This document shows positions 1-18,635 of a stretch of 64,000 nucleotides of DNA, piece after piece. Both the position numbers and the translations under genes were made by a program. Numbering within the stretch: position 1 is the stretch's first letter; each line of letters opens with the position of its first letter. The notes below the pieces were generated by a model. That model saw only the letters and a program-made list of their open reading frames with translations. It had not been told where the DNA came from and ran no database searches. The stretch is from contig NZ_CP109009.1 in the NCBI RefSeq assembly GCF_036226685.1, positions 868,001 to 932,000 on the forward strand. The letters run 5' to 3'. This stretch comes from Streptomyces sp. NBC_00690. Lineage in GTDB: Bacteria; Actinomycetota; Actinomycetes; Streptomycetales; Streptomycetaceae.

Positions 1-1861
1 CGCGGAGATCCGTCAGACGGCCGTCACGAACGGCCAGGTCAAGTGTCGCAGCCGTGGCATCGGGTTGCAGCCCCTTCGCAGAGACGGTCTCCAGCACATC
101 GCCGATCGGGCTCTTCCGCCTCACGACGAACCGTGTCGATACCATGGGGGCAACGGCCCGCACTCCGGGAAAGTCACGTGCGCGGTCGGCGATGCCTGGC
201 GGGAGACCGTCGGCACCGTTGGCCACCAGTACCCGGTCGACCTCGGTCAAACGTGCGGTGGCCTGCTGTGCGCTCTCCCTCTCCAGCGTGGTCCCGGTGA
301 AGAGCACCGTGCAGGCGAAGCCGGAGACCAGGGTGAGGGGAACCACCGCGCCGGCAAGTCTGCGCGTCTCAGCACGGAACGCCCGGTGGGTCAGATGGCC
401 GGCGATCCCGCCCACACGCGTCATGGCGGAACCGATCAGACCCATCCCCAGTCGCACCACCACCGGCCCGAGCAGCGCGAACCCCAGCAGCAGCACAGCC
501 ACGTACGCCAAGGTCCGGATGACGTCACCCTCGCTCTGGTTCCGCAGGGTGAGCACCACGCCCACGACCAGGACCAGGACCCCGCCGAGAGTACGCCAGC
601 CGGAGACGCCCTGCGGTGGCGCGTCCGCTTCACGCAGAGCTTCCACGGGACGGATCCGACTCGCCCTACGGACCGCCATGAGCGCCGCCGCCTGCACCCC
701 GATGAGACTGAGGATCGCCGCGGCAAGGAGTGGCAGGAGGCTTCGGGACAGAGAGAGTTGGGCGGGGAGAATCCCCGCGGATACGAGGACCTCACGCATC
801 GGTTCCGCCAGGAGAAGACCGAGCGGGCCGCCCAGCAGGGTTCCGACACTCGCCAGGATCAACGCCTCCCCGCACACCATGCCGCGGACCGTGCCACGGG
901 ACGCGCCGACAGCGCGCAGCAGCGCGATTTCACGCCGTCGCTGCTGTACGGAGATGCTGAACGGCCCGGACACGATGACCATGGTGAACACCGCAGCCAG
1001 CAACCCGAACGACGCGGAGATGGCGAGTGCGAAGTCCCGCCCCGCGACGGTCTCTCGATTCTCCGCCTCGGCTCGGTCACCACCGTGCAGTACGCGCACA
1101 CCGGCGGCTCCGACGCGTTCCTCGATCCGCAGGGCGAGTTGCCGCGGGGAGACTCCAGGACGCGTGGTGACGGCGATGGCGGACGGGCCGGGCAAGACCC
1201 CCGCGGAACGACTTAGCTCCGCCGCCTCCCGGTCGGTGAAGAACAACGATGCCTCGCGTGGACGCTCGCCGCGACGGCCCGGGCTCCCCGCAGGCTCGAC
1301 GAATCCCACGACACGGTAGGTGCGGGCGCCGCTCACCGTCAGCACGCGCACTGTCGAACCGGGTTCCAACTCCGTCCGTGCAGCGGTGCGGCGGTCGACC
1401 ACCACATCGCCGTCGCGGCGCGGTGGCTGCCCGGACACCAGCCGGAACGGAGTTGTCGACGCCGCACTCCAGGCGTGCCCCCGAGAGGGTCCGCCGTTCG
1501 GGCCGCCGACAGCGACACCGTCGACTCCGACGAGTTGTGCGTACAGCGGCCGGTCCTCGACGACGCCGAGCACTCCTGGCACACGCCGTACTTGATCGGC
1601 GAGTCCTTGCGGCAGTGGCCGTTCCTCCGGCAGAACAGCTTGGATCGACCGCCCGCCGGGCTGTTTCTCCTTGACCCAGGGGTCACCGTCCACCACGACA
1701 TCGGCTGCTGCGAACCGCTCGGGTAACGCCTTCATTCTCAGGCTCGATTCGAAGTACACCCCCCACACCGTGGTGAGCACTACTCCCAGGAGGACGCCCG
1801 CGAACGCGCCGACAAGTCCCGGCAGGCGACCGCGTACGGTGCGCCATGCGATTAATGCCAT
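1..1861 (-). CDS. FtsX/MacB-type ABC transporter permease, C-terminus off the window
   Basis: The frame stays open to base 1, giving about 620 residues of a protein that in this family is usually 800-850 long. After a short N-terminus there is one membrane segment (about residues 14-35), then a MacB-like extracytoplasmic domain. Three hydrophobic segments follow (FtsX core, about 280-400), then the start of the second membrane bundle. The start ATG at 1861 lies 10 bases after the stop of the peptidase gene, so it looks like the last visible gene of the lanthipeptide operon. Such permeases work with a separate ATPase, which would have to lie left of the window. A role in export of, or immunity to, the lanthipeptide is inferred only from position. 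Confidence 0.85.
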   Translation of the reverse strand, partial: MALIAWRTVRGRLPGLVGAFAGVLLGVVLTTVWGVYFESSLRMKALPERFAAADVVVDGDPWVKEKQPGGRSIQAVLPEERPLPQGLADQVRRVPGVLGVVEDRPLYAQLVGVDGVAVGGPNGGPSRGHAWSAASTTPFRLVSGQPPRRDGDVVVDRRTAARTELEPGSTVRVLTVSGARTYRVVGFVEPAGSPGRRGERPREASLFFTDREAAELSRSAGVLPGPSAIAVTTRPGVSPRQLALRIEERVGAAGVRVLHGGDRAEAENRETVAGRDFALAISASFGLLAAVFTMVIVSGPFSISVQQRRREIALLRAVGASRGTVRGMVCGEALILASVGTLLGGPLGLLLAEPMREVLVSAGILPAQLSLSRSLLPLLAAAILSLIGVQAAALMAVRRASRIRPVEALREADAPPQGVSGWRTLGGVLVLVVGVVLTLRNQSEGDVIRTLAYVAVLLLGFALLGPVVVRLGMGLIGSAMTRVGGIAGHLTHRAFRAETRRLAGAVVPLTLVSGFACTVLFTGTTLERESAQQATARLTEVDRVLVANGADGLPPGIADRARDFPGVRAVAPMVSTRFVVRRKSPIGDVLETVSAKGLQPDATAATLDLAVRDGRLTDLR

Positions 1862-1871
1862 GGTGATGCCG

Positions 1872-3965
1872 TCAACCTTTCAGCCCCAGCTGACCACCGA
1901 GAAACGCGAGGACATCCGATCCCAGAGCGGCTGCCCGGCTCGTCGATCGCTTGCCGTGTCCCGAGCCCGCTTCCCGGCGCAAGAGCACTGGCCTGCCCGA
2001 GCGGTTCGCATGTTGCAGGGCTCCGCACATCTTCCGCGCATGACTGGGATCTACACGGGTGTCACCCTGGAAGACCGCGAACAGCACGGCCGGATAGGAA
2101 GTTTCCTCTCGCACATTATGATACGGAGAGTAGCTGAGCAACCAACGAACGTGTTCGGGATCGTCCGCGGTTCCGTACTCGGCACTCCACAATCGCCCCA
2201 TGCCTGACCTCTCGTACCGGAGCATGTCGAGAAGCGGCGCCGAACATACCGCGGCACCGTACAGCTCCGGCCGCTGGACCAGTGCCGAGGCGACCAACAG
2301 CCCTCCGTTGGAGCCGCCCACGGCTCCCAGTTGTCTTGGTGTCGTCCAACCGTTGTCGACCAGCCACTCCGCTGCGGCGTGGAAATCGTCGATGCTGTTC
2401 TGTTTGCCCGCACCCGTGCCCGCCCGATGCCACGCCTGCCCCTGCTCGCCCCCTCCGCGAACCTGAGCCACGGCGTACACACCGCCTGCCTCCACCCAAG
2501 CCAGTGCGTCGGGTTGGTACGACGGGGACATGCTGACGCCGAACCCACCGTACGCGGTCAGCAGCAGCGGGCGGGGGCGCCCGGGCTTCGTGTCCTGGGC
2601 GAGGACCAGCATCCCGACCGATGTGCCGTCCTCGCTGCGGTAGCGGACGTGGCGCGTGGTCACGGCGGTACGCGACCGCACTGATGGACGAGGTGTGCCG
2701 CCGACCATCAGCCCCGTGCGCGGGTCGTAGCGGTGGATTCGAGGAGGAGAGGTCATGTCGGCGTGGGCGATCCACGCCTCGCCCGGCGTGTCGGCCTCAC
2801 TCGCGGGGTGTACGGATATGCCCCTGACGGTTCCGAGCTCCGGCAGCGGCACCCGGCGGATCAGCTCACCGGTGTCCGTGCGGTGCACCGTGACCGTGTG
2901 GACGGCATCCCGCGCCCACTGGGCGAGCAACAGCCCTCCGCCGAGCGGCACGACGCGTGCGAGCACCGCCCAGGGGTCTTCGGGGATGAGTTCCTCCCAC
3001 GGCCCTCGGGGGTTCTCGGGGTCGGCGACGCACAACCGGTGCCGGGGCGCGTTCTCGTCGGTCAGGAGGTACAGACGTCCGTCGGGCCCCGCATCCGCCC
3101 GCACACGAGCCCGGCCGGCGGGGTGGAAGGTACGGAGGCGGGGCTGGCTGGCCGGGCCCGAGCCGAGGTCCGCCAGCATGAGTTCGCGGGACAGGGCCGG
3201 GCCTGCGGCCAGGGACACCAGGAGAAGGCGCCCGTTCGGGCTGACGCGGACGTCGTACACCCGGCGGTGGTCATCCTGGCCGCCTAGCACCAGGACATCT
3301 TCGCGCGTGTGTTCTCCCACCCGGTGCCACCAAAGGCAGGGCCGTGCGCCGGGCGCGGTACCGCCGTCGGAACCGTACTCGGGGCGGGTGTAGTAGAAGG
3401 ACCGGCCGTCGGGCAGCCATGCGACCGGGGAAGAGCGGCAACCAGTGATTCCGTCATCGGCCAGGAGTCCGCCCGTGCGGACGTCCAGGACCCGGAGGCT
3501 GGCGTTCTCGCTGCCGCTGTACGCCAACTGGCAGGCGACGAGACGTCCGTCGGGGGACGGTTCCCAGGCTTCGAGGGTGATGGTGTCGGCATCCGACAGG
3601 TGTGCCAGGTCGAGCAGGGGACGATCCAGGTCGTCGGGCGCCGAGGTGTACAGCACCTCGTGCTCGTTGCCGGGGATGTGGCGCAGAAAGAAGCGACGGT
3701 CGCCCCGCCACGCCGGGACCTGTTCCGAGGCCGCCCCGTACAGTTCGCGCAGCCGTGGGCCGAACCGGTGGGGCCAGGTACGTCGTTCCGCTGCGTAAAG
3801 CCGGTCCTGTGCGGCTTCCCAGGTGCGGGTCTCGGCCGACGAGGAGTCCTCCAGCCAGCGGTACGGGTCCTGTGTGGACACTCCGAACACGCGGTGGACG
3901 GTCGGGTCCCGGTGGGCGGGCGGGAATCGCCGGCCGGAGTCCCGCGGTGCCATGGCCTCAGTCAT
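1872..3965 (-). CDS. Prolyl oligopeptidase (S9A), candidate lanthipeptide leader protease
   Basis: A 697-residue serine peptidase, normal length for S9A. The N-terminal part carries DPYRWLED, typical of the family, followed by a beta-propeller region and a C-terminal alpha/beta hydrolase domain. The triad is visible: Ser in GGSNGG (about 552), Asp in GDTRVD (about 635) and His in GSGHG (about 670). No signal peptide is seen, so it should be cytoplasmic. The start overlaps the flavoprotein stop as ATGA, which decides the start against longer frames. Prolyl oligopeptidases are known to trim class III lanthipeptide leaders (FlaP for flavipeptin) by cutting after proline. The precursor here has a single Pro, at position 19, directly before the predicted core. 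The leader-protease role is therefore a strong inference. Confidence 0.93.
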   Translation of the reverse strand: MTEAMAPRDSGRRFPPAHRDPTVHRVFGVSTQDPYRWLEDSSSAETRTWEAAQDRLYAAERRTWPHRFGPRLRELYGAASEQVPAWRGDRRFFLRHIPGNEHEVLYTSAPDDLDRPLLDLAHLSDADTITLEAWEPSPDGRLVACQLAYSGSENASLRVLDVRTGGLLADDGITGCRSSPVAWLPDGRSFYYTRPEYGSDGGTAPGARPCLWWHRVGEHTREDVLVLGGQDDHRRVYDVRVSPNGRLLLVSLAAGPALSRELMLADLGSGPASQPRLRTFHPAGRARVRADAGPDGRLYLLTDENAPRHRLCVADPENPRGPWEELIPEDPWAVLARVVPLGGGLLLAQWARDAVHTVTVHRTDTGELIRRVPLPELGTVRGISVHPASEADTPGEAWIAHADMTSPPRIHRYDPRTGLMVGGTPRPSVRSRTAVTTRHVRYRSEDGTSVGMLVLAQDTKPGRPRPLLLTAYGGFGVSMSPSYQPDALAWVEAGGVYAVAQVRGGGEQGQAWHRAGTGAGKQNSIDDFHAAAEWLVDNGWTTPRQLGAVGGSNGGLLVASALVQRPELYGAAVCSAPLLDMLRYERSGMGRLWSAEYGTADDPEHVRWLLSYSPYHNVREETSYPAVLFAVFQGDTRVDPSHARKMCGALQHANRSGRPVLLRREAGSGHGKRSTSRAAALGSDVLAFLGGQLGLKG

Positions 3966-4567
3966 AGCACCGAGGCGGTGAACCGCAGGATCGTCACCAG
4001 ATCGGCCATGGCACCGGAGCCGACACGGCCGGTGTGTACGGACATGCCTTCCTGTGTGGGCACGACGTAGTGACCCTCCTCTTCCAGAAGTTTCAGGTTC
4101 CTTCGCACGGATGGGCGGTGCAGCGCCGCCTCGGGTACCGACGGGGCGATCACGACCGGGCAGGTCGAGCTCATCACCGTGCTCACGGCGAGACTGTCCG
4201 GCATGCCGGTGGCACATTTGGCCACGAAATTTGTGGTCGCCGGTGCGACGATGATCAGTTCTGCCCAGGCTGCCAGTTCCTGGTGGGGAGTCATACCTTC
4301 CGAAGTCGGCCAGTGCGGGCCCCGGACGGCCGCGCCAGCGGCCGCGGCGAGTGCTTCGCGGGACACCAGCCGGTCGGCCGAGTGGGTCAGACAAGGCCGA
4401 ATCGACCAGCCGTACCAGGAACGGAGCAGAGCGGCCCACCCCGGAAGCTCAACGACGGAGAAGGCGCCCGTACCAATGAGTACGACATTGCCGTGAACGA
4501 GAGGAAGGTGACGGGGCGCACGGGGCGGTGGGCCCCCCGCCGGGTCGGTGGACGACAGGCGGTTCAT
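3962..4567 (-). CDS. LanD-like flavoprotein, peptidyl-cysteine decarboxylase
   Basis: A 201-residue HFCD flavoprotein (EpiD/MrsD/Dfp superfamily). The N-terminal beta strand and phosphate-binding loop VVLIGTGAFS is followed later by PATTNFVAKCATGMPDSL, the counterpart of the PASANT motif that binds FMN and substrate in EpiD. LanD enzymes oxidatively decarboxylate a C-terminal cysteine to an aminoenethiol. The precursor in this operon ends in Cys, as required. Start and stop both overlap neighbours by ATGA (permease upstream, peptidase downstream), implying translational coupling. In class III systems this activity together with LanKC yields the avionin residue of lipolanthines. A coenzyme A-pathway decarboxylase is an alternative by family, but context argues against it. 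Confidence 0.9.
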   Translation of the reverse strand: MNRLSSTDPAGGPPPRAPRHLPLVHGNVVLIGTGAFSVVELPGWAALLRSWYGWSIRPCLTHSADRLVSREALAAAAGAAVRGPHWPTSEGMTPHQELAAWAELIIVAPATTNFVAKCATGMPDSLAVSTVMSSTCPVVIAPSVPEAALHRPSVRRNLKLLEEEGHYVVPTQEGMSVHTGRVGSGAMADLVTILRFTASVL

Positions 4568-5328
4568 CGGACGACTCCTTTGCGGAACAGGCTGGCGGCC
4601 CATGAGACTGTGAGCACCGCGAGCCCTCCGACCACGGCGAATCCCACTGGTATCGCGGTGTCATGGAATTGGCCGGCCATCAGACTTCTGGCGGCTTCGA
4701 CGGCGTAGTACAGGGGATTGACCTTGGCCATCGCCTGCAGCCAGCCGGGAGCGAGCGTGACGGGGAGCAGAAGGCCACTCACCAGCGTGAGCGGCATGGT
4801 CAGTATGTTGACCGTGCTCGCCAGGGTGTTCTCGTCGCGCAGTACGAGTGCCAGGCCGTAGGAGGTGCTGGCACCGAGCACTCCGACCAGGGCGACCAGA
4901 ACCAGAGTCATCGCCGTTCCCCCGAGATGCGCGCGAAGCCCCATCGCCATGGCTACCGCGAGGAGGAGCAGCGCCTGGGCGGTGAGCAGGGTGACATCGC
5001 GCAGGAGCCATCCCGACAGCAGCCCGACGCGGCTGACGGGGGTGGCGGCCAACCGCTCCAACACACCGGTACGGAGGTCTGCTAGGAGGGTCAGTCCCAT
5101 GAAGGTGCTGCCGAACAGGGCGACCATCATCAGCAGCCCGGGGACGAACAGCATGAACTGGTTCCCGCTGCTGACGCCGGGGCCCGTCACCGACCTCACC
5201 AGCGGGCCGAACAGCACGAGCCACATCACGGGTTGCCCCAGACCGAGCACGATCCAGGTGCGGTTGCTGACCGCCTCGTGCAGCGCGAAACGGTAGAGCG
5301 CTCGGGTGTCCGGCAGCAGAGTGTTCAT
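4564..5328 (-). CDS. ABC-2 type transporter permease
   Basis: A 254-residue membrane protein with six predicted hydrophobic segments, among them WIVLGLGQPVMWLVLFGPLV near the N-terminus and GFAVVGGLAVLTVSWAASLF at the end. The central LRTGVLERLAATPVSR is the conserved cytoplasmic loop of drug-export ABC-2 permeases (DrrB type). Its start overlaps the stop of the ATPase gene as ATGA and its stop overlaps the flavoprotein start in the same way. It should form a 2+2 exporter with the ATPase and most likely exports the mature lanthipeptide. Substrate assignment rests on context alone. Confidence 0.92.
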   Translation of the reverse strand: MNTLLPDTRALYRFALHEAVSNRTWIVLGLGQPVMWLVLFGPLVRSVTGPGVSSGNQFMLFVPGLLMMVALFGSTFMGLTLLADLRTGVLERLAATPVSRVGLLSGWLLRDVTLLTAQALLLLAVAMAMGLRAHLGGTAMTLVLVALVGVLGASTSYGLALVLRDENTLASTVNILTMPLTLVSGLLLPVTLAPGWLQAMAKVNPLYYAVEAARSLMAGQFHDTAIPVGFAVVGGLAVLTVSWAASLFRKGVVR

Positions 5329-6371
5329 TGTGCCGCCCCTGGACCGTCTGTGAGGGAACGGCCGGTGTGGTGCAGGAAGACGTCGTCGAGGCTGGGGCGC
5401 GACAGTGCCACTTGGTCCACCGCACACCCCATGGAGTTGAGCGTGTGCAGCACCAGAGGAAGTGCCTTCTCGCCGTCGTCCGTGTACACCCGCAGATGGG
5501 AGTCGTCGGCGCGGACGGAGTGGACTCCGGACAGTTGCGTGAGCTCGACACGCACGGCGTCCGTGTGCCCGCTTTCCAGTCGGAGCCGCAGGACATCGGG
5601 TGAGAGCGACTTCTTGAGTTCCTCGGGGGTACCGCAGACCACTACTCGGCCCTCGTCGATGATCGCCAGCTGATCGCACAGGCTGTCCGCCTCGTGCAGG
5701 TAGTGGCTGGTGAGGAAAACAGTGGAACCACGGTCGCGGAGGGCCCTGATCTCCTGCCACAGCCCGGATCTGGCGCGAGGGTCGAGGCCCAGGGTGGGCT
5801 CGTCTAGGAAGAGGAGTCCGGGGGCGTGGACCAGTCCGACGGCCAGCGCCAGCCGACGGGCCTGTCCGCCCGACAAACTCCCGGTCCGTCGCTCATCCAG
5901 GCCCCGGAGGCCGAAGACCCGGAGCATGGTGTCGGCTCGCTCTGCTGCCTGCGGGGCGGTCAGACCGAACAGCCGCGCCTGGAGGAGGAGGTTTGCGCGG
6001 ACCCGGGTCGCGGGATTGACCCCGCCGTACTGGCTGACATAGCCGATCCGGCGCCGGACCTCTCCCGGTTCGGACAGCACGTCGTGACCTGCGACGACCG
6101 CGCTTCCGCTGTCGGGCGCCAGCAGTGTGGCGAGGATCCGAACCGTGGTGGTCTTCCCCGCTCCGTTCGGGCCGAGGAAGCCGAAGATCGATCCCGTGGG
6201 CACAGTGAGGTCGATGCCCCGTAACGCCTCTGCCGGTTGTCCTGTCGGCTGCCTGCCCCAGCGCCGTCGCCTTGGCGCCGGATATGCCTTCCGCAGTGCG
6301 CGGACCTCGATGGCCGCTCCGGGATCGCCCGTGGCCTGCAGGGCGGCCCTCCCGAGCTGGGGAACCGTCAT
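5325..6371 (-). CDS. ABC transporter ATP-binding protein (DrrA type)
   Basis: A 348-residue ATPase. Walker A is GPNGAGKTT (about residues 70-78), the signature is LSGGQARR and Walker B is LLFLDEPTLGLDP, all intact. The C-terminal 100 residues form the extra domain typical of DrrA/NodI-type drug-export ATPases. It starts with an ATGA overlap on the GNAT stop and ends with an ATGA overlap on the permease start, so the pair is made together. Its neighbours (precursor peptide, modifying enzymes) point to lanthipeptide export or self-protection. Confidence 0.94.
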   Translation of the reverse strand: MTVPQLGRAALQATGDPGAAIEVRALRKAYPAPRRRRWGRQPTGQPAEALRGIDLTVPTGSIFGFLGPNGAGKTTTVRILATLLAPDSGSAVVAGHDVLSEPGEVRRRIGYVSQYGGVNPATRVRANLLLQARLFGLTAPQAAERADTMLRVFGLRGLDERRTGSLSGGQARRLALAVGLVHAPGLLFLDEPTLGLDPRARSGLWQEIRALRDRGSTVFLTSHYLHEADSLCDQLAIIDEGRVVVCGTPEELKKSLSPDVLRLRLESGHTDAVRVELTQLSGVHSVRADDSHLRVYTDDGEKALPLVLHTLNSMGCAVDQVALSRPSLDDVFLHHTGRSLTDGPGAAQ

Positions 6372-7027
6372 GCGCGAATGTCTCGTGTGTGTTCGAGGAA
6401 GGACCGCAGGTGTGCACCGGTCCGGCCGGCCAGGAGCACGCGCGTGGCCTCCTTCGCCTGTGCCCTGTCCTCCGCGGGCACGATGTCCTCGGGCGGGGCG
6501 AGGGGAGATTCGGGGCCCAGCGCGTAGTAGTCGTCGCGGAGCATCGAGATGGAGACGCCGTCGTGGTAGACGCCGTCGAGGAAGAAATAGTCGCGGAGCA
6601 GTCCCTCGAAGATGAAGCCCCGCTCACCGACGAGGCGAACGCTCCGCTTGTTGTAGAGACCGACGACCCCCTGCACACGGTGGGCGTTCTTGGAGTGGAA
6701 CAGATGCCGGAGCAGGAGGCTCAGGGCTTCGGCTCCGTAGCCTGCGCCCCAGTGCTTCGGGTCGCCGATGTTGATGCCGATCTCGTAGTTCCCGGCGTAG
6801 GTCGCCCGGGAGTAGTCCGCGACGCCGACGAGTTGACCCTCGTCCGTGACAACCGCGAGGTACTGGTGTCCGCTCTGCCGGGAGAAATCCCGTAGCTCTT
6901 CCCCGGACAGAAACTCCGCGGAGGCCGATGAGTAGGCTCCCGACTGGCCCGAAGACCACTTCGCCAGTTGCTCGTAGTCCTCGTCCGACATCCGCTGCAG
7001 ACGGACGAGCTTTCCTGTGATGGCCAT
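6368..7027 (-). CDS. GNAT-family N-acyltransferase, candidate lanthipeptide N-terminal acylase
   Basis: A 219-residue RimJ/RimL-like GNAT protein. The acyl-CoA binding loop is visible as KHWGAGYGAEAL in the middle, with YNKRSVRLVGERGFIFEG after it, as in Rim-type acetyltransferases. A tail of about 45 residues beyond the GNAT fold has no match I recognise. A ribosome-binding sequence (GGGAAGAG) precedes the ATG at 7027. It is the first gene after the strong hairpin that follows the precursor gene. GNAT enzymes attach the acyl chain to the peptide N-terminus in lipolanthine and goadvionin pathways, so acylation of the core Val after leader removal is the natural hypothesis. No polyketide or fatty-acid synthase gene is visible here, so the acyl donor is unknown. 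Self-resistance by acetylation is an alternative. Confidence 0.85.
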   Translation of the reverse strand: MAITGKLVRLQRMSDEDYEQLAKWSSGQSGAYSSASAEFLSGEELRDFSRQSGHQYLAVVTDEGQLVGVADYSRATYAGNYEIGINIGDPKHWGAGYGAEALSLLLRHLFHSKNAHRVQGVVGLYNKRSVRLVGERGFIFEGLLRDYFFLDGVYHDGVSISMLRDDYYALGPESPLAPPEDIVPAEDRAQAKEATRVLLAGRTGAHLRSFLEHTRDIRA

Positions 7028-7079
7028 CAGTCTCTTCCCATCGGGTTCTACCGGGACCCTGAGAGTCCGTACCGTGGAC

Positions 7080-7133
7080 GCCGGGCCCGCCGCTGGGCGA
7101 GGTCAGTGCCTCGCCGACAGCAGCGGGCCCGGC
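7080..7133 (-). terminator. Long hairpin between precursor and downstream operon
   Basis: The outer arms GCCGGGCCCGC (7080-7090) and GCGGGCCCGGC (7123-7133) are perfectly complementary. An inner 7-bp stem (7096-7102 with 7109-7115) closes a 6-nt loop. It has no T-run. It sits 66 bases after the precursor stop and 52 bases before the GNAT start, where RiPP operons often carry a leaky terminator or mRNA-stabilising hairpin that favours precursor over enzymes. A weaker stem (7168-7172 with 7182-7186) lies just after the precursor stop. Confidence 0.65.
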
Positions 7134-7198
7134 ATGCGGGGCGTGAGACGATGAGGCAACCACTCTCACACCACATCACTAGGTGTTTCTCACTGCTG

Positions 7199-7282
7199 TC
7201 AGCAGTGCCAGCTGGCGGTGCTCACCGGCAGCTCCGAGCCCTCGGTCGAGGTCTCCATCTCCTGCAGTTCGAGAATCGTCAT
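7199..7282 (-). CDS. Class III lanthipeptide precursor peptide, predicted avionin core
   Basis: A 27-residue peptide, too short for ordinary gene calling. It starts at ATG 7282 behind a near-perfect ribosome-binding site, AAAGGAGGTGAC. Residues 3-7 are ILELQ, the leader motif recognised by class III LanKC enzymes. The middle is acidic (four Glu in residues 8-17). Pro19 precedes the last eight residues, VSTASWHC (20-27). Ser21, Ser24 and Cys27 give Ser-x2-Ser-x2-Cys ending at the C-terminus, the arrangement used for avionin in microvionin-type lipolanthines. It lies 116 bases downstream of LanKC and upstream of a GNAT and a LanD. Sequence and context agree closely. The exact cleavage point and ring are inferred. 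Confidence 0.88.
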   Translation of the reverse strand: MTILELQEMETSTEGSELPVSTASWHC

Positions 7283-7398
7283 GTCGTCACCTCCTTTCGT
7301 GTTGCCTTGGTTGCCCTTCCTCTCCCCTTCTCCTGATGTCGCGGCCTTGGGCAGCGCGGCGGTGCCACGCGGTCGCGATCAGGTGCCCGCTGACCGGG

Positions 7399-10014
7399 TC
7401 ACGGCTTCTGCGGGCGGAAAAAGGGGAGAAACTCGCTCGGCTCTTCCAAGGCGGTCGCAATGCCTAGGAGGACACCGGCATTTCCAGTGGCCAGGTCCAT
7501 GGACAGCCGGAGGCTCTGGTCGCCCGGGAACGCGAGCCGACCCCGGTAGGACAGGGCCAGCCAGCTGAACCGTCGCAGATGACGGCGCACCACGGCTTCG
7601 GCGTCGTCGAGCGGAACGTGGTGCCGCAGTCGAGCGACCGTGGCGAGCAGGCCCGCGCGTCCGTTGAAGAGATGGGACTCCGCGACCAGTTCCGTACGGC
7701 AGGCGGCAATGATCTCCCGCACGGTCGCTGAGAGCCGCTGGTCCTCCCCGTGGGCAAGGATTTCGTCGGACACCAGCCCGATGCCCGCGCTGCCGCTCTC
7801 CAGGTAGGCGAGTGTCCGCCGGCCCGATTCCAGGACCTGTGAGGTTCCGTTGTCCAGAGTGACGCATTCCGCGAGATCGTGGTCGAGCGCGGCACGAGCC
7901 ATGGCTAGATGCTCTCTGTCGCCAGTGGACTCGTAGAGCCGAAGGAAGAACAGAGCGGGACCCGACCAACCGTGCATCAACCCCGCACGCTTCTCCGTGC
8001 CCGACGTTCGCCCCGAACGTACCGACTCCGCCAGCCGTTTCGCTATCTTCCGAACTTCGAGACGGGCGGCCGTGTCTCCATACCGCCCTTCGAAGTACAG
8101 CAGGTTGAGCCCGATCCCGGACAGCCCGCTGAACAGCGACATGCCGTGGGTGTGCTCGGTGAGTGGCAGGGACTCGCTGACCACGGCACGGGCCACGTCG
8201 TGGTGACCTAGCTTGTCCAGGGCATAGGCGGTTCCATGACGGCCCGTGTAGAAGCCGGGCTGCTCCGGCAGCCCTCGGGAAACGGCATCGAGCAGCCATT
8301 GTTCGTGCTCAAGGCTTGGCGGTGCTCCGGTGGCGGCAAGGGCCCAAAGAACACCTGCCGCGCCGTAGGCGAAGCTCGTCGGTCCGTGGCGGAACTGCCG
8401 TACGTCTCCGGGGTAGAGCTGATCGATCCGCTCCGGGGTGGCACTCAACCGGATTGCCTCCGCTAGAGAGGTCCGCACGGCACGCCAATCCGGGCTCTCC
8501 GTGTCCAGATCGACATCGAGGGGCTGGCCGAGAACCCGCCGCCGTTGAGCGACGAGGTTCGCGGGGAGCCCTGGAGGCACGTGTTCACTGCGCCCTTCCT
8601 CAACGCCCATGTCCTGCAGGACGCCCGTGGTGAACCCAGTAGGCAGCGCGAATCTCTCGGCCACCGCGGCGGCCGTCTCCGCGACCTTCCGCGGACCCAA
8701 CGGAAAGATCCGATTGACCGGCAGGAAGGCCCAGAGCCGGAGGGAGGCGAACGCGTACCGGTCCATCTCTTCCCCCGTGCGGCACCAGGGAGCGGCGAAA
8801 CCCTGTGCTCCCATGGCCGGCCGATAGCTCTCCTCCTGCCAGAAGGCAGTTTCGAAGTCAATGAACGAGACTGTGCCATCCGCATCCACGAGGACATTCC
8901 CGGGATGCAGGTCACCGAAGAAGATCCCCTGTCGGTGGATGTCTTCGAGTAGTTCTCCCACGCGGTCCAGAAGGGCGAGAGCATCGTGGGTGTATTTCTC
9001 GATGTCCTGGTCGCTGGGATCGGGCTGAAGGAGGGCATGCGATCGACCGGCCCAGACGAACAAAGGGTCTCCGGGCATCAGTTCCATAGCCAGGAATTCA
9101 TGCTCCCACACTGTGAAATATCCGTCGACATTCGGAACACCACTTACATCGGAGAGGTGTTCCAGAACACGTCGCTCTCTACGCAGTCGACTGATCGCAT
9201 CCTGTCCCAGTCGATCGAGCCCGGCATTCGGACGCGCCTCTTTGAGGATGACGGATATTCCATCCGACCGGCGCTCCGCGAGATACACCCCGCCGCCATT
9301 GGAGAAGTGAATTGCCTTCTTGACTTCGTAGGGGAAATCAACAGTGTCGCTCTCACGGGCAGCCTCAAGGGCAGGGCGGAGGAATTCCGGGATCTGGACC
9401 CATCCCGGCGGCGAAAAGACGGGTTTGCGATGGTCCTGCACCAACGCGCCGTCCGGTCGCACCAAGGCCAGGACGAGTTCCCCGTCCGCATTCAGCGTCC
9501 GTGTGTTCCGGAAGCCCCCGTAGCGTACGAAGAGAGGCCCCTTCCCCCAGCGCAGATCGCTCAGGATATACGACCCTGCCTGGCCTCCCTCCGCTTGGAG
9601 GAGTGGTGAAAGCTCTTCCAAAATGCCCCCGCACTGCTCCTCATCGGCAGGGTAGATAGCCGCCAGCTTCCCGCTCGACTGCCGCGGTGCGTACTTCGAG
9701 TTGAGCACGAGATGCATATTGCTGTCGCGCAGATACTTGAAGGGCAGATCGCGCATGACGCAATATTCCCAGACAATCTCCAGCGCCTGGGGTGCATTGT
9801 CCATACGGGCGGAGAGATGAATCTTCCAACCTTGGCTCGGCGGGGAGACCTCTGCCGGTCGAAGCACCGTCCACATGTCCTCATACGTACGAATCCAGCC
9901 CTGGGGAATCGGCTTGCTGCTCACCTTGAATTCGGTAGCTGGTTCGACCCACCGGCTTGGAGTGTCATAGAAGGTCAGGTTCGCCCAGCCGAACAGTTGA
10001 TGGTCTTCCTCCAC
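7399..10014 (-). CDS. Class III lanthipeptide synthetase LanKC
   Basis: An 871-residue three-domain enzyme of normal length. The N-terminal lyase region (about 1-220) is followed by a Ser/Thr kinase-like domain with ATP lysine in VILKEA (Lys258), catalytic GDLHPGN (367-373) and metal-binding DFE (386-388). The C-terminal cyclase-like domain (about 540-871) has FYTGRHGTAYALD and MHGWSGPALF. It lacks the Cys-Cys-His zinc site of class I, II and IV cyclases, which defines class III. The enzyme would phosphorylate Ser21 and Ser24 of the precursor, eliminate phosphate to dehydroalanine and direct ring closure with Cys27. It is the first gene of the minus-strand cluster. Its upstream region carries a palindrome and 11-bp-spaced direct repeats. 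Confidence 0.96.
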   Translation of the reverse strand: MEEDHQLFGWANLTFYDTPSRWVEPATEFKVSSKPIPQGWIRTYEDMWTVLRPAEVSPPSQGWKIHLSARMDNAPQALEIVWEYCVMRDLPFKYLRDSNMHLVLNSKYAPRQSSGKLAAIYPADEEQCGGILEELSPLLQAEGGQAGSYILSDLRWGKGPLFVRYGGFRNTRTLNADGELVLALVRPDGALVQDHRKPVFSPPGWVQIPEFLRPALEAARESDTVDFPYEVKKAIHFSNGGGVYLAERRSDGISVILKEARPNAGLDRLGQDAISRLRRERRVLEHLSDVSGVPNVDGYFTVWEHEFLAMELMPGDPLFVWAGRSHALLQPDPSDQDIEKYTHDALALLDRVGELLEDIHRQGIFFGDLHPGNVLVDADGTVSFIDFETAFWQEESYRPAMGAQGFAAPWCRTGEEMDRYAFASLRLWAFLPVNRIFPLGPRKVAETAAAVAERFALPTGFTTGVLQDMGVEEGRSEHVPPGLPANLVAQRRRVLGQPLDVDLDTESPDWRAVRTSLAEAIRLSATPERIDQLYPGDVRQFRHGPTSFAYGAAGVLWALAATGAPPSLEHEQWLLDAVSRGLPEQPGFYTGRHGTAYALDKLGHHDVARAVVSESLPLTEHTHGMSLFSGLSGIGLNLLYFEGRYGDTAARLEVRKIAKRLAESVRSGRTSGTEKRAGLMHGWSGPALFFLRLYESTGDREHLAMARAALDHDLAECVTLDNGTSQVLESGRRTLAYLESGSAGIGLVSDEILAHGEDQRLSATVREIIAACRTELVAESHLFNGRAGLLATVARLRHHVPLDDAEAVVRRHLRRFSWLALSYRGRLAFPGDQSLRLSMDLATGNAGVLLGIATALEEPSEFLPFFRPQKP

Positions 10015-10053
10015 AGCCGCCGCACTCCTCTCGCCCGGACCGCACGATCACCT

Positions 10054-10070
10054 CGGACAATCACTGTCCG
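10054..10070. promoter_or_regulatory. Inverted repeat upstream of LanKC, candidate operator
   Basis: CGGACA and TGTCCG form perfect 6-bp arms around a 5-base centre, 40 bases upstream of the LanKC start codon. The spacing and position fit binding of a dimeric repressor or activator. No regulator gene is present in the visible cluster. Confidence 0.4.
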
Positions 10071-10099
10071 CCCTGCAGATCAACCAATGTATGGAAGGC

Positions 10100-10128
10100 G
10101 GGTTTATGGACGGTATATTGCCGGTATA
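10100..10128 (-). promoter_or_regulatory. Heptamer direct repeats at 11-bp period, SARP-like box
   Basis: CGGTATA occurs at 10111-10117 and again at 10122-10128, exactly 11 bases apart. A degenerate third copy, GGGTTTA, lies at 10100-10106 (5 of 7 matches). Streptomyces SARP activators bind heptamer direct repeats spaced one helical turn apart just upstream of a -10 element. The array lies about 90 bases upstream of LanKC. The sequence is unlike the classical TCGAGxx heptamer, so the match is by spacing only. Confidence 0.35.
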
Positions 10129-10501
10129 CGGGCAGGGCAACATGCGCCAGGAACTGCGGTCTTGCTGAATCGGAACCTCAAGGCGACCGGGCATCGAATG
10201 GCTCACCTGCACGCCTCGCCGCGTGGCGGAGGAGGGGAGTGCGATTGCCCCCAGGAACAAGCACATGCCGCAGGCGCGGCACAACGGATTCGGCAGACCA
10301 TCAGAAACTCCTCTGCCCTGCCGAATCAGGCAGTCGCGCCCCTAGAGCCCGTTCGAATCGGCTTCCCTGCAGAGAGGCCACCGCGCATCCCTTCAGCACA
10401 CACGGCGACCTCCCCTTCGGCGTCCACTACGCGAAGCGCATGTTCATCGGCCAGGCTGCTCCTCGCGGCGCTCTTCCCGGAGCTGCCCGGTGATCAATGT
10501 G

Positions 10502-10747
10502 TCAAGGGCTCTCGGTGAAGCGAACGGACCAGGCGTAGCCGCTCAAGCTGTCCTGGGTGACCCGCCGGACCTCTTTGACCTGGCAACCGTCGTGGGCGTA
10601 CTTACGAGCGAACCGATCGAGGCGCTCTGCATCGGTGAGATCTTCCATGGACAGGGGTGCTCCGACGACCAGGTCCTCATGAACGATTGTCTCCGTCACA
10701 GCACCGTCCGAGCAGGCTGAGCAATGATGCGTTTTGGGTAGGGTCAT
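10502..10747 (-). CDS. Small hypothetical protein with CxxC
   Basis: An 81-residue protein starting at ATG 10747 (MTLPKTHHCSACSDG). A CxxC pair near the N-terminus (residues 9-12) and a further Cys at about 54 could hold a metal or disulfide. The C-terminal half (KYAHDGCQVKEVRRVTQDSL) has ordinary globular composition. No signal peptide or membrane segment is seen. It lies 490 bases upstream of LanKC on the same strand. I see no reason to assign it to that cluster and do not recognise the family. Confidence 0.55.
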   Translation of the reverse strand: MTLPKTHHCSACSDGAVTETIVHEDLVVGAPLSMEDLTDAERLDRFARKYAHDGCQVKEVRRVTQDSLSGYAWSVRFTESP

Positions 10748-11281
10748 AGGTGCAGTGTCCTCTTCTTCTGTGGTGCTCTGCAGAGCACCCGCTGCTTGGG
10801 AGCCGTGGGCGGATACCCGCTGGGCGAGAAGCGCTCCCGCACCCTCCTCGATGCGAGGACCCAAGCGACACCCTGGGCACCCCGATCACTCTGACTCATG
10901 CGGTCAGAAGCCAGGCGCCGGAGACCATCGGCCTTGAGTGTTCGCCGGGTGGGCGGGCCGCCCGAATCATCCCTTTTGGTACCTGCTGCCACCGCCTGTC
11001 CTGACGGTCACACAAGAGCAGCGGGCTCTGCATGCTTTGTGGGCACTCGAACTGAGCCGATCCGGCCTCGGATCGTGCACACAAGACGACGTTCACATTG
11101 CCGCATGTAAAGCCAAGTTGACGGGCGAGTGGCATCATGTCGTGCTCATGGCAACATCCAGCTCGTGCTTGCCCTGCCCGAGAGCGCCGCGCCATCGTCA
11201 GTTGCGGCGTACAGACCCCGTACGCCGCACCCAGCGGGCGCGTGCACTTTTGGCGCGCCACCATTCGAGGAGGACCACTCG
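10748..11281. other. Intergenic region before the subtilisin-like protease
   Basis: About 530 bases without a gene I can support. It must include the promoter of the protease gene. The ribosome-binding site GAGGAGG stands about 9 bases before its ATG. Short open frames on both strands here have no recognisable content. Confidence 0.4.
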
Positions 11282-12493
11282 ATGGCAGCAGTGCGCAACA
11301 CCAAGCGGCGGATCGTCGCGGCGGTAGCCACCGTGGCGACTGTGGCGTTGGCAGCCGGAGCGGGCGCGATCTTACCCGCCCAGGCAGCCCAGCCCGAGGG
11401 CAGAATCCTGCAGGCCGGAGCAGCAGGCGCAGTGCCGGGAAGCTATCTCGTCACACTGAAGCAGACCGCTGGTTTCACCGCGTCCACCGCCCGCGGTAAG
11501 CAACTGATAGCCAGCTACGGCGGCCAGATCAAGCGCACCTACACCTCTGCGTTGAACGGCTATGCCGCCACGCTCAGCAACACCGAGGCCAAGCGGCTCG
11601 CCGCCGACCCGGCGGTCGCCTCGGTCGAGCAGGACCAGAAGGTCCACTCGACCGCCACCCAGTACAACGCACCCTGGGGCCTTGACCGGATCGACCAGGC
11701 GAACCTCCCGCTGAACGGTACGTACACCTACCCTGACTCGGCGGGCATCAACACGACCATCTACGTCCTGGACACCGGGGTGCGCATCACCCACCAGGAC
11801 ATCGTCGGCCGCGCCTTCAACGGCTACGACTTCATCGACAACGACCCCATCGCCCAGGACGGTTACGGGCACGGCACCCATGTCGCCACCACCGCCGCCG
11901 GGACCACCTGGGGAGTGGCGAAGAAGGCCAAGATCGTTGCAGTGCGTGTCCTCGGCAACACCGGGTCCGGTACCACCGCTGGCGTCATCGCCGGCGTCGA
12001 CTGGATCACCGCCAACCATGTGGCCTCCTCCGTTGCGAACGTATCGCTCGGCGGAGGGCCCAGCCCCACACTGGACAACGCGGTCAGGCGGTCGATCGCG
12101 TCTGGCGTCACCTACTCCATCGCGGCCGGCAACTCAGGCGCACCCGCGTCGGGTTACTCGCCCGCCCGAGTGACCACTGCGATCACCGTGGGCGCCACGA
12201 CCAGGACCGATGCCAAGGCCACCTACTCCAACCACGGTCCCATCGTGGACATCTTCGCGCCGGGCTCCGACATCACGGCCGGCTGGAACAACTCTGACAC
12301 CGCCACCTACACGGGCAACGGCACATCCTTCGCCGCGCCCCATGTTTCCGGTGCTGCCGCGATCTATCTGACCAACCACCCCGGCGCCTCCCCCGCGGCC
12401 GTGGCAACGGCACTCGTGAACGGCGCAACGCCCAACGTTCTCACCGCCATCGGAGCGGGCTCCCCGAACAAGCTGCTGAGGCTCGTACCGTAG
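11282..12493 (+). CDS. Secreted subtilisin-like serine protease (S8)
   Basis: A 403-residue protease of proteinase K type. The N-terminus MAAVRNTKRRIVAAV followed by an Ala-rich stretch ending AQA is a Sec signal peptide (cleavage near residue 35). An inhibitor I9 prodomain follows (about 50-122, SYLVTLK to VEQDQKVHS). The catalytic domain has Asp164 in VLDTGV, His197 in GYGHGTHVA, oxyanion Asn284 in AAGNSG and Ser349 in GTSFAAPH, so the enzyme should be active. The start ATG at 11282 is chosen because GAGGAGG precedes it and it begins the signal peptide. It is monocistronic, closed by the terminator at 12509-12538. It probably degrades extracellular protein. Confidence 0.95.
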   Translation: MAAVRNTKRRIVAAVATVATVALAAGAGAILPAQAAQPEGRILQAGAAGAVPGSYLVTLKQTAGFTASTARGKQLIASYGGQIKRTYTSALNGYAATLSNTEAKRLAADPAVASVEQDQKVHSTATQYNAPWGLDRIDQANLPLNGTYTYPDSAGINTTIYVLDTGVRITHQDIVGRAFNGYDFIDNDPIAQDGYGHGTHVATTAAGTTWGVAKKAKIVAVRVLGNTGSGTTAGVIAGVDWITANHVASSVANVSLGGGPSPTLDNAVRRSIASGVTYSIAAGNSGAPASGYSPARVTTAITVGATTRTDAKATYSNHGPIVDIFAPGSDITAGWNNSDTATYTGNGTSFAAPHVSGAAAIYLTNHPGASPAAVATALVNGATPNVLTAIGAGSPNKLLRLVP

Positions 12494-12508
12494 CGACATG
12501 TCGACCGG

Positions 12509-12538
12509 GGCCCGTACGGGATCATTCCCGTACGGGCC
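12509..12538 (+). terminator. Rho-independent terminator after the protease
   Basis: GGCCCGTACGGG and CCCGTACGGGCC are perfect 12-bp arms around the 6-nt loop ATCATT, starting 16 bases after the protease stop. Only two T residues follow, which is usual in Streptomyces. Confidence 0.85.
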
Positions 12539-12716
12539 TTCCGTCGCAGGCGACTGTTTCGTGGGCAGAACTCGCTGGTTCCTCACGAACCTCTCCCATC
12601 CCGAGCAAGAGCCGTCGGACACTCCCCCGCAGTGACGGTAGTTGGGATTCGCCTTGCCCGGTCCGCGCTCTGGCTTTGGCCAGCCTTCCGGGATGGAGTG
12701 GCCTAAAGTGACCGCC

Positions 12717-14678
12717 ATGGTGGGGGAAGTGGGACGCTTGGTGGGTGGACGGTACCGATTGGTCGAGTTGGTGGGCCAGGGCGGTATGGGACGGGTATGG
12801 CGGGGGCACGATGAGACCCTCGACCGCAGGGTCGCCGTCAAGGAAGTGGTACTGCCGGCGGGAACTTCGCCGGGTGAGCGGGAGCAGTTGCTTCAACGCA
12901 CCATGCGCGAGGCGCGGGTGGCAGCGACACTGGGGCACCCCGGGATCATCACCGTCCATGACGTGGTCAAGGACGCTGACGCTCCCTGGATCGTCATGGA
13001 GTTCATCCCCGGGGACTCCCTTGGTGGCCTGATCGCCCAGAACGGCAGGCTCCCTTGGCAGAGGGTCGCCGAGATCGGCGCGGAGATCGCCGACGCGCTC
13101 GCGCATGCCCACGCCGCTGGCGTTGTCCACCGTGACCTCAAGCCCGACAACATCCTCATCCACGGCGCGCGCACCATCCTCACCGACTTCGGCATCGCCC
13201 GTGTCCTCGACGACTCGGCTGGAACCCGGCTCACCCGTACCGGAACAATCGTGGGAACACCTCAGTACATGGCTCCCGAGCAACTCGAAGGCGGGGACGC
13301 CACCGCTGCCGGCGATCTCTGGTCACTCGGAGCCACCCTGTACGCCGCCGTCGAAGGCAAGGGCCCCTTCGAAGCTCCTACTTTGATGGCACTCTTCCAC
13401 GCCATCCTCTCCCAGCCCCTGCCTGCACCCCGGCACGCCGCACAGCTCGCCCCCACCCTGAACGACCTTCTGTCCAAGAATCCCGATCAACGCCCGAGTG
13501 CCACTGCCCTCGCCGCCCGACTCACCGGTCTCCATCACCCGCCCACCCGGCCGGACCATCCAGCGCCACCGGCACCGGCACCGAAGTACCAGCCGACCGT
13601 CACCGCACCCGCCCGGCAACGTCCGTCCGTGCCACACCCGCCCACCCATATCTCCGCACCGGATACACACGCCACACCGACTACGGGAGGAGCCGGGCGA
13701 AGTGGGCCTGCCCGTCGGACGGTCGTCCTGGCCGGGGCCACGGCCGTTGCCGGGATCGCCGGGGCCGCATGGGCGCTCAGACCCGATTCGGACGAGCCCT
13801 CGGGCCGACCGAGTACGGCCAGCCTCAAGGGTCACACCAAGGGTGTGTATGCGGTGGCCTTCAGCCCCGATGGGAAGACCGTCGCCAGCGGGGGCGAGGA
13901 CAACACCGTCCGTTGGTGGAACACGGCCACCAGGTCCCTCACCGCATCGGTCAACGGGCGTTCCCTGGTGTTGGCCGTGGCGTTCAGCCCGGACGGCAAG
14001 ACCATCGCCACCGGTCACGGTGACAGCACCATCCGGCTATGGCGTGTGGCCGACCGCGGTCTCGTTGCCACCCTCACCGGCCACAGCAAATCGGTGAACG
14101 GCGTCGCCTTCAGCCCGGACGGCAAGACCGTCGCCAGCGCGGGCCGGGATCTGACGGTGCGTCTGTGGAAGGTGTCCGACGGGGCCCCCGTCGCCGTCTT
14201 CGCCGGCCACACCTCCGATGTGGTCTCCGTCGCCTTCAGCCCCGATGGGAAACACCTCGCCAGCGGCGCCTGGGACAACACGGTCCGCCTCTGGGACGTG
14301 GCAGCCGAAAGCCCGCTCGCCACCCTCACCGGCCACACCCTCTATGTGTCGTCGGTCGCCTTCAGCCCCGACGGAAAGTCTCTCGCCAGCGGTGGTTGGG
14401 ACAAAAAGATCCGGCTGTGGGACGTGGCTTCCCGGACCAGTACCGCCACACTCGATGGGCACACCGAGATCGTGAGAGCCGTCGCGTTCACACCGGATGG
14501 CGAGCAGCTCGCCAGTGCCAGCGAGGACGAGACCGTACGCATATGGGACATCCTGCGTCGGGCCAGCACCACCACCCTCTCCGACAGCGCAGGGGCCCTG
14601 TGCTCGGTCGCCATCAGCCGGGACGGGAGAACCGTGGCCAGCGCCGACCGGGACGTACGCCTATGGAGTCTCGACTGA
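12717..14678 (+). CDS. Ser/Thr protein kinase with C-terminal WD40 propeller
   Basis: A 653-residue membrane-linked kinase. The N-terminal Hanks-type domain (about 10-265) has glycine loop GQGGMGRV, catalytic HRDLKPDN, DFG and APEQ. A Pro-rich linker is followed by one membrane helix (VVLAGATAVAGIAGAAWAL) and then seven WD repeats of about 42 residues, each with VAFSPDGK-like and TVRLW-like signatures. Seven blades make a closed propeller, presumably outside the membrane as sensor or binding platform. The upstream in-frame ATG at 12693 is possible. I prefer 12717 because TAAAGT (12704-12709) resembles a -10 hexamer placed so that transcription would begin at or near this ATG. Confidence 0.9.
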   Translation: MVGEVGRLVGGRYRLVELVGQGGMGRVWRGHDETLDRRVAVKEVVLPAGTSPGEREQLLQRTMREARVAATLGHPGIITVHDVVKDADAPWIVMEFIPGDSLGGLIAQNGRLPWQRVAEIGAEIADALAHAHAAGVVHRDLKPDNILIHGARTILTDFGIARVLDDSAGTRLTRTGTIVGTPQYMAPEQLEGGDATAAGDLWSLGATLYAAVEGKGPFEAPTLMALFHAILSQPLPAPRHAAQLAPTLNDLLSKNPDQRPSATALAARLTGLHHPPTRPDHPAPPAPAPKYQPTVTAPARQRPSVPHPPTHISAPDTHATPTTGGAGRSGPARRTVVLAGATAVAGIAGAAWALRPDSDEPSGRPSTASLKGHTKGVYAVAFSPDGKTVASGGEDNTVRWWNTATRSLTASVNGRSLVLAVAFSPDGKTIATGHGDSTIRLWRVADRGLVATLTGHSKSVNGVAFSPDGKTVASAGRDLTVRLWKVSDGAPVAVFAGHTSDVVSVAFSPDGKHLASGAWDNTVRLWDVAAESPLATLTGHTLYVSSVAFSPDGKSLASGGWDKKIRLWDVASRTSTATLDGHTEIVRAVAFTPDGEQLASASEDETVRIWDILRRASTTTLSDSAGALCSVAISRDGRTVASADRDVRLWSLD

Positions 14679-17054: not shown

Positions 17055-17361
17055 TGGTCGGACAGCGGACCATCGGAGTTCCCGTACCGATCAGGGTTTC
17101 CGTGGACGGATCGTCAGCGAGGTCCGAAACGGGGCCGGGTGGAGTGTTCCGGCCCGGCTCAGCGATTCCCCACTCCCTGAAGGGCTCTCCTCGTGGGCCC
17201 GTACGGGACTCGGCGGATACGAAATCGGCCTCCGTCTGATCCCTGTGCTCCAACCGGTGGGACGCAGGGATCAGCACGAAGGCCGTGGGGGGAGGAGGCT
17301 GCCGTACCGCGATGTCCGGTGTGAGGTCTTCGCGGTGCCGTCACACTTCCCAGGAGCCGTT
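17055..17361. other. Intergenic region between LPMO and DJ-1 genes
   Basis: About 300 bases after the LPMO stop and before the DJ-1 start, both on the minus strand. I see no gene, and no hairpin or box I can support. Confidence 0.4.
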
Positions 17362-18228: not shown

Positions 18229-18635
18229 GGCGACTCACTCTCGTACGTGTAGGGGACGTCGGGAGGATCTGGACAACACCGCCCCGAGTGCGGGGGGTTG
18301 GGGCGGAGGTCTATACCAGAGAATCACATTGGTCCGTACCAATAGCAAGGGGATGCGTACCATCCCCGAGAGATATGGCTGCCGGCTCGCCTTACGGGTG
18401 TTCCATCCAGGGTTGGCATCATGGAAGGCGGCGAGCATTTCCGGGGTATGTCCGAGCCAGTGGCCGGCCAACACAACATCATCGGCTTCCGTGCCCACTT
18501 CCAACGCCGCATCGAGTCCTCGGTGAGATCGTTGGCGTGACCGGGTGTCTCGGATCGACGCCGCCAGGAATGGCGACTGGCGTCAGTGTGCCGTCGACCG
18601 TGAGGCGTGTCAGTCCGTGGGGCTAGCATCCGCGC
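18229..18635. other. Divergent promoter region of LPMO and DUF4253 genes
   Basis: About 400 bases between divergent genes. The DasR-like pair lies on the LPMO side. A minus-strand open frame ending at 18235 (with AGHWLGHTPEMLAAFHDANP) has coding-like composition but matches nothing I know and would cover the promoter, so it is not called. Confidence 0.4.
18307..18343 (-). promoter_or_regulatory. Two dre-like sites (DasR/chitin-type) upstream of the LPMO
   Basis: AGGTCTATACCA (18307-18318) matches 10 of 12 bases of the TGGTCTAGACCA element. TGGTCCGTACCA (18330-18341), inside the longer palindrome ATTGGTCCGTACCAAT, matches 9 of 12. The two are 23 bases apart, 80-115 bases upstream of the LPMO start. 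Paired elements of this kind stand before Streptomyces chitinase genes and bind DasR. Confidence 0.6.

Follow-up and report, generated by a model that had tools for sequence, protein, structure and literature searches.

A putative minimal avionin-type lanthipeptide cluster without its own acyl synthase in Streptomyces sp. NBC_00690

A compact set of lanthipeptide genes

The stretch of DNA considered here, referred to as the window, comprises 64,000 nucleotides of Streptomyces sp. NBC_00690 (G000:C1:868001-932000; assembly of 9.17 Mb in two contigs). Its left end (2-10014) holds eight genes, all on the minus strand, which encode a class III lanthionine synthetase (LanKC), a short precursor peptide, a GNAT-family acyltransferase, a DrrAB-type pair of ATP-binding cassette (ABC) transporter proteins, a LanD-type flavoprotein, a prolyl oligopeptidase (POP) and an FtsX-type permease (Table 1), a combination that suggests a lanthipeptide of the avionin type. 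The reading frames are intact, and the ends of the GNAT, ATPase, permease, LanD and POP genes overlap in an operon-like arrangement, with the start of POP overlapping the stop of LanD. FtsX is truncated by the window edge and complete, at 860 amino acids (aa), in the assembly, where the left flank was read. For LanD there is an alternative start, an ATG at 4567 (3962-4567, 201 aa), as in database entry P0001. The permease matches the DrrB model with E 3e-28, below the model cut-off, and POP carries the motifs GGSNGG, GDTRVD and GSGHG.

Table 1. Genes of the cluster, with positions in the window
Feature	Position	Strand	Evidence
LanKC, class III lanthionine synthetase, 871 aa	7399..10014	-	NF038151 E 6e-288
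27-aa LanA precursor; residues 1-19 predicted as leader, 20-27 (VSTASWHC) as core	7199..7282	-	conserved at L007:3313-3399
GNAT acyltransferase, 219 aa, predicted N-acylation of core	6368..7027	-	PF13302
ABC transporter ATPase, DrrA-like	5325..6371	-	TIGR01188 E 1e-91, 307.1 bits vs cut-off 312.45
DrrB-like ABC transporter permease, 254 aa (start ATG at 5328)	4564..5328	-	PF01061; TIGR01247 below cut-off
LanD-type flavin-dependent Cys decarboxylase (predicted), 213 aa	3962..4603	-	PF02441 E 4e-18
Prolyl oligopeptidase (POP), S9 family, 697 aa, candidate leader peptidase	1872..3965	-	PF02897/PF00326
FtsX-type permease	2..1861, past left edge to about -721	-	PF02687

A conserved precursor with an avionin motif

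The precursor gene encodes the 27-residue peptide MTILELQEMETSTEGSELPVSTASWHC. Its open reading frame (ORF) sits behind ACGAAAGGAGGTGACGAC and is preceded by a strong ribosome-binding sequence, GAAAGGAGGTGA. The window contains 28 Cys-terminated ORFs of 18-80 aa, two of which end in [ST]xx[ST]xxC, and of these two the cluster precursor alone combines a LELQ leader with adjacency to LanKC. By its LxLQ leader and its place adjoining LanKC the precursor falls into class III, and its core ends in the S-x2-S-x2-C of the lipolanthine and goadvionin lineage.

Streptomyces sp. NEAU-Y11 (locus L007) carries the seven large genes in the same order, with protein identities of 60.8-72.7%, and has a counterpart of the precursor, MATILELQELETSTEGSELPVSTASWHC, in the same place between LanKC and GNAT. 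With 28 codons paired from the stop, the two precursors differ by 8 synonymous and 2 non-synonymous changes, one of the latter being the window's start Met paired with Ala2. Within the final 17 codons, 7 differences are synonymous and 0 alter an amino acid. Because these residues are identical despite seven synonymous codon changes, purifying selection is indicated, and by this codon pattern the precursor is a real gene. A precursor search of 392 same-genus genomes found the window's own copy alone. The sequence-only reading from which this work started had listed the same genes, running in one direction, and a precursor with an ILELQ leader and a VSTASWHC end; the gene list is borne out by the ORFs and by Pfam and NCBIfam profile matches, and the precursor by its conservation in NEAU-Y11 and by the alignments with sister precursors described below.

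These observations bear on whether the cluster is still functional. A decaying or non-functional lipolanthine remnant, left after loss of a fatty-acid synthase (FAS), would suit the patchy distribution of LanD, which at E <= 1e-40 is found in 1 of 41 relatives (25 of the same genus, 15 of the same order, 1 of the same class), namely the window's own genome. It fits poorly with the intact frames, with the gene order shared with NEAU-Y11 and with the codon pattern of the precursor, and we rejected decay as very unlikely.

Three further loci, whose LanKCs belong to a sister clade in the tree discussed below, have precursors ending in AASTTSWNC (L036), AASASSWNC and AASVTSWEC (L061) and AASTVSNNC (L037), all of which close with S-x2-S-x2-C. 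In alignments of the window precursor with those of L036, L037 and L061, 0 of 2000 shuffles aligned as well in each case. For two controls, the real alignment was reached by 3 of 2000 shuffles (L065) and by 42 of 2000 (L008, from a SapB-like cluster). Since the controls also score, part of the signal must come from the leader common to class III. An ordinary SapB-like cluster was considered and rejected, as L008 and L009 have long cores with internal Cys and no LanD match.

Avionin differs from labionin by decarboxylation (PMC10880069). The predicted core, V-S-T-A-S-W-H-C, has the X-S-x2-S-x2-C spacing of nocaviogua and, like it, 8 residues (PMC10435860). Nocaviogua is given as Ala-Avi-Val-Ser-Avi-Asn/Asp-Gly-Avi, with the inner Ser left free (PMC10435860); because that Ser is free at the same spacing, Thr22 may by analogy remain free as well. 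A noursin-like product, with Thr22 also dehydrated and crosslinked to His26 as a histidinobutyrine, seems highly improbable. The core does contain Thr and His, and noursin biosynthesis involves a LanKC, a leader with LELQEL and an S9 peptidase encoded in the cluster (PMC10206099), but the position of His is taken by N or E in the sister precursors, Thr22 would lie within the first avionin ring, and the passages on the noursin cluster name no LanD (PMC10206099).

Kinship of LanKC and LanD with the enzymes of Streptomyces sp. TP-A0584

LanKC has RamC_N, kinase and LANC-like domains, and its kinase Lys, GDLHPGN and DFE motifs were located by pattern. It scores 957.7 bits against NF038151 (cut-off 575) and 381.7 bits against the class IV model, under that model's cut-off of 650, and is thus a class III synthetase. 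With regard to the cyclase domain without zinc ligands expected of class III, a count by position gives only two Cys after residue 500. Identity is 68% to the LanKC of NEAU-Y11, 59% to that of Embleya and 47% to that of Streptomyces sp. TP-A0584, which we take to be the goadvionin producer.

To place LanKC among its relatives we used a tree of 37 rows: 6 loci, and 31 rows taken from the 120 that were listed among 3706 homologues. The LanKC of the window falls in a clade of 8 rows (100/100) with NEAU-Y11, S. cucumeris, NPDC052051, NPDC004752, one further row and two Embleya. Its sister is a clade of 12 rows (100/100) that includes TP-A0584, L036 and L061, and the two are joined by a node with support of 94/94. 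A LanKC of S. noursei (P0060, 47%), possibly NorKC, lies outside the window's clade.

Other LanKCs were encountered along the way. A second one in the window's genome is 39% identical to the first (G000:C1:6909235-6911820; L002, L005). A distant LanKC lineage has LanD within the same 20 kb (L062:16528-17086 and 17183-19711; L065:850-3378 and 3507) and precursors such as MTQILELQELDTDFGPDEEGVIAYSSLSGAACDSNWSIFVC; it gave no match to the KAS (ketoacyl synthase) and ACP (acyl carrier protein) queries taken from the sister clusters, and possibly represents class III peptides of another family that end in aminovinyl-cysteine.

LanD is 61% identical to an entry named 'Protein LanD' of Streptomyces sp. 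TP-A0584, and the CoaBC model matches it with E 8e-27, below the cut-off. Its H107, P121 and A122 are invariant in 8 aligned sequences; H107 presumably corresponds to the catalytic His of EpiD, and P121-A122 to the PASANT motif. By these features LanD appears to be the Cys decarboxylase of the lipolanthine and goadvionin lineage.

Such genes are rare. At E <= 1e-25, LanD matches occur in 17 of 392 same-genus genomes, where 7 candidates were scored per genome and not all, and in 6 of 394 same-class genomes; at E <= 1e-45 they occur in 5 of 394 genomes of the family and 5 of 362 of the order. Every LanD tally in this study counts the window's own genome, and the genome draws overlap. A LanD of the grade seen in the window's clade was found in one further genome besides its own (G967, 78%). 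There, locus L060 holds the right half of the cluster on a contig that ends in the ATPase gene, and no LanKC was found in the G967 genome at E <= 1e-80. The sequence of L007 likewise stops 609 bases before the LanKC match, so that the far sides of the cluster lie outside both L007 and L060. FtsX is present in both. Among 20 loci, most of those whose LanD has an identity of about 50% or less showed no LanKC. Plasmid searches found no close relative of LanD, GNAT or LanKC, the top-ranked matches being 38.5%, 32.2% and 45.0% identical, respectively.

No dedicated acyl synthase near the cluster

The cluster contains no polyketide synthase (PKS) or FAS genes, and genome-wide profile searches found no ketosynthase or ACP in the window or in the 20 kb to its left. 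Because those 20 kb left of base 1 were read and the profile searches there were empty, the missing PKS/FAS is not an edge effect, and we rejected the idea that such genes lie just past the left window edge. The assembly as a whole has 55 ketosynthase matches, the nearest being at 523625, a weak fragment 344 kb to the left of the window, and at 1377767, 446 kb to its right, and 103 PP-binding matches, the nearest of which, weak and with an internal stop, is at 800450 (about 67 kb left).

The sister clade, in which gene surroundings were examined at L036, L061 and L037, looks different. L036 has, by Pfam, two ketosynthases, two PP-binding proteins, an AMP-binding enzyme and a fatty-acid desaturase, and L037 has a PP-binding protein (ACP) and a desaturase-like gene. 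In L036 and L061, KAS and ACP lie beside LanKC, and together with an acyl ligase gene they fall within about 10 kb of it; our guess is that these two loci are of the lipoavitide type. Queries from these genes of L036 and L037 match L061 and, in part, L037. They gave no match at the window, at L004 (which takes in sequence left of base 1), at L007 or at L060, and the acyl-ligase query gave one weak match, in L040.

Could the cluster belong to a true lipolanthine, whose acyl chain comes from a PKS or FAS at another site in the genome and reaches GNAT in trans? The many ketosynthase and PP-binding matches in the genome would allow it, as would the kinship of GNAT to GNATs of FAS-linked clusters. 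It is at odds with the empty window and left flank, with the failure of the sister queries at L007 and L060, and with the close spacing of KAS, ACP, acyl ligase and LanKC in L036 and L061, and we give it a small chance.

In the open-access literature searched (titles, abstract openings and passages of the papers listed), no avionin cluster lacking PKS and FAS came up. To our knowledge, avionin-type acylated lanthipeptides all have a dedicated PKS or FAS. The sequence-only reading had also proposed avionin-type chemistry and seen no PKS or FAS. The first proposal finds support in the kinship of LanKC and LanD to those of TP-A0584 and in the alignment of the precursor with those of FAS-linked sister clusters; the second holds in the window and, on the leftward extension that reading had asked for, for 20 kb beyond base 1.

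The GNAT and the acyl group

The GNAT gene directly follows the precursor in the window and in L007. Among its homologues (a list of 12 rows, the window's own included), identity is 68-70% to NEAU-Y11, NPDC052051 and NPDC004752 and 51% to Embleya, and the ketosynthase-adjacent GNATs of L036 and L061 are 43% and 44% identical. GNATs of the selidamide and nostolysamide pathways load fatty acids from primary metabolism onto lanthipeptides (PMC9505594, PMC13060382), and GNATs can also serve self-resistance (PMC13060382).

Given the latter role, GNAT might serve self-protection or some unrelated function, the mature product being an unacylated avionin peptide exported by DrrAB and FtsX. Weak family matches to RimJ, spermidine and resistance acetyltransferases point the same way, as do other GNATs outside any assigned setting that are equally near. 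The position of the gene directly after the precursor in two loci, and its homology to the ketosynthase-adjacent GNATs of L036 and L061, speak for a tailoring role instead, and we see a modest chance at most for a GNAT without one. Of the homologues listed, P0169 is named Peribacillus simplex and P0166 is close to it (Bacillales by that one name); a plasmid search with P0169 found no close relative (top match 29.3%).

A POP and a candidate Pro cut site

POP is present in all 3 own-clade loci available (window, L007 and L060), and Pro stands directly before the 8-residue core in both own-clade precursors available (window and L007). No POP match was found in L036, L037 or L061, the precursors of which have Met-Ala-Ala and no Pro before the core. 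POPs have been implicated in class III maturation, and one of them, FlaP, cuts its class III leader after Pro(-12), and does so efficiently only when the rings are already in place (PMC10885120). For microvionin, cleavage by MicP2 occurs behind acidic residues and, to a lesser degree, at Ala-Ala (PMC10885120). A POP matched to a Pro cut site is plausible from these five loci on two branches.

Neighboring genes

Upstream of LanKC is a 120-aa ORF (10502-10864, minus strand) with no Pfam or NCBIfam match and a weak codon signal, which may be no gene. Beside the cluster, the opposite strand (11129-14678, plus) encodes a subtilisin-like protease that has an I9 propeptide, and a WD40-repeat Ser/Thr kinase. 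In each of the three own-clade loci available, a DUF6545 gene is located on the outer side of FtsX (L004:17012-19419, to the left of base 1 of the window; L007:11417-13209; L060:4026-4916); the other two copies are 53.6% and 56.9% identical to the copy in the window's genome. The gene adjoining it in the window's genome and in L007 resembles, by our reading and with no Pfam match, an ImmA/IrrE peptidase, and the two are possibly regulators of the cluster.

A proposed pathway

Taken together, we read the locus as an avionin lanthipeptide cluster that is intact and minimal and forms a sister lineage to the goadvionin and FAS-linked clusters; it has no FAS or PKS of its own and would draw its acyl group from primary metabolism. 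We put the probability of this reading at roughly 0.63. In the pathway that we propose, LanKC would bind the ILELQ leader and dehydrate Ser21 and Ser24, with Thr22 perhaps staying Thr. LanD would oxidatively decarboxylate the C-terminal Cys27, and the three residues would close to avionin (S-x2-S-x2-C). The clustered POP would then cut after Pro19, releasing an 8-residue core with N-terminal Val20, the amine of which GNAT may acylate, with primary metabolism and not a dedicated PKS or FAS as the source of the acetyl or fatty acyl group. DrrAB and FtsX would export the product or protect against it. The [M+H]+ values calculated for such products are m/z 808.356 for the free avionin core, 850.367 for its acetyl and 1046.586 for its palmitoyl form, and 790.345 with one additional dehydration.

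Several observations weigh against this reading. No product of the cluster is known. The joining node of the LanKC tree falls below the usual 95 line for its first value. The kinship of GNAT to FAS-linked GNATs is not exclusive, as P0166 and P0169 (43% and 42%) and P0167 and P0168 (40-41%) are equally near; among proteins of solved structure, spermidine and diamine acetyltransferases come closest to it (best E 5e-14), and its best NCBIfam model is RimJ-like, far below the cut-off. The sequence does not fix the acyl group. The link between POP and Pro amounts to 2 loci versus 3, spread over two branches, and the contig of L037 ends within the locus, which makes absences there weak. Finally, FlaP cleaves 12 residues before its core and not at the border (PMC10885120).

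More tentatively, the cluster may represent a small-avionin family in which a lipolanthine-type GNAT takes acyl groups straight from coenzyme A metabolism and POP defines release of the 8-residue core. If so, it would show the pathway either ahead of gaining a dedicated polyketide or fatty-acid partner or after losing one, and the origin of hybrids between lipids and ribosomally made peptides could be tested in one small cassette. Acylated lanthipeptides are few, and here a conserved cassette of about 11 kb holds candidate modifying, releasing, acylating and exporting genes and no acyl synthase. It would offer an easy system for rebuilding avionin chemistry, for probing GNAT acceptance and for studying how peptide-lipid hybrid pathways arise.

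Comparison with known systems

The goadvionins, presumed products of TP-A0584, are among the closest known systems, by LanKC (47%), LanD (61%) and the sister clade in the tree, the comparison being made on these two TP-A0584 proteins. The window has POP, DrrAB and FtsX, and no nearby ketosynthase or ACP, whereas goadvionins are polyketide-peptide hybrids joined by the acyltransferase GdvG (PMC12837651). The lipolanthines (microvionin, nocavionin and nocaviogua) share LanKC plus LanD, the avionin motif and, in nocaviogua, an 8-residue core; a difference is that the literature presents them as lipopeptides bearing a long acyl chain. The microvionin leader is removed by the AplP-like proteases MicP1/MicP2, whose genes are not part of the cluster (PMC10885120), whereas the window has a clustered POP. 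For lipoavitides (acyltransferase LpvE), the key paper refers in its title to non-modular fatty acid synthases, of which the window has none.

Noursin (NorKC) resembles the predicted peptide in its class III LanKC, LELQE leader and S9 peptidase in the cluster, but has labionin plus histidinobutyrine and a 16-residue core with Cys second to last, and the passages describing it name no LanD (PMC10206099). The selidamides and nostolysamides provide the parallel of a GNAT that loads acyl groups from primary metabolism onto a lanthipeptide (PMC9505594, PMC13060382); their acylation is on Lys or Orn side chains, and nostolysamides are made by a class II synthetase (PMC13060382). Overall, the cluster is best read as a POP-bearing sister lineage of the goadvionin and FAS-linked clusters without its own acyl synthase.
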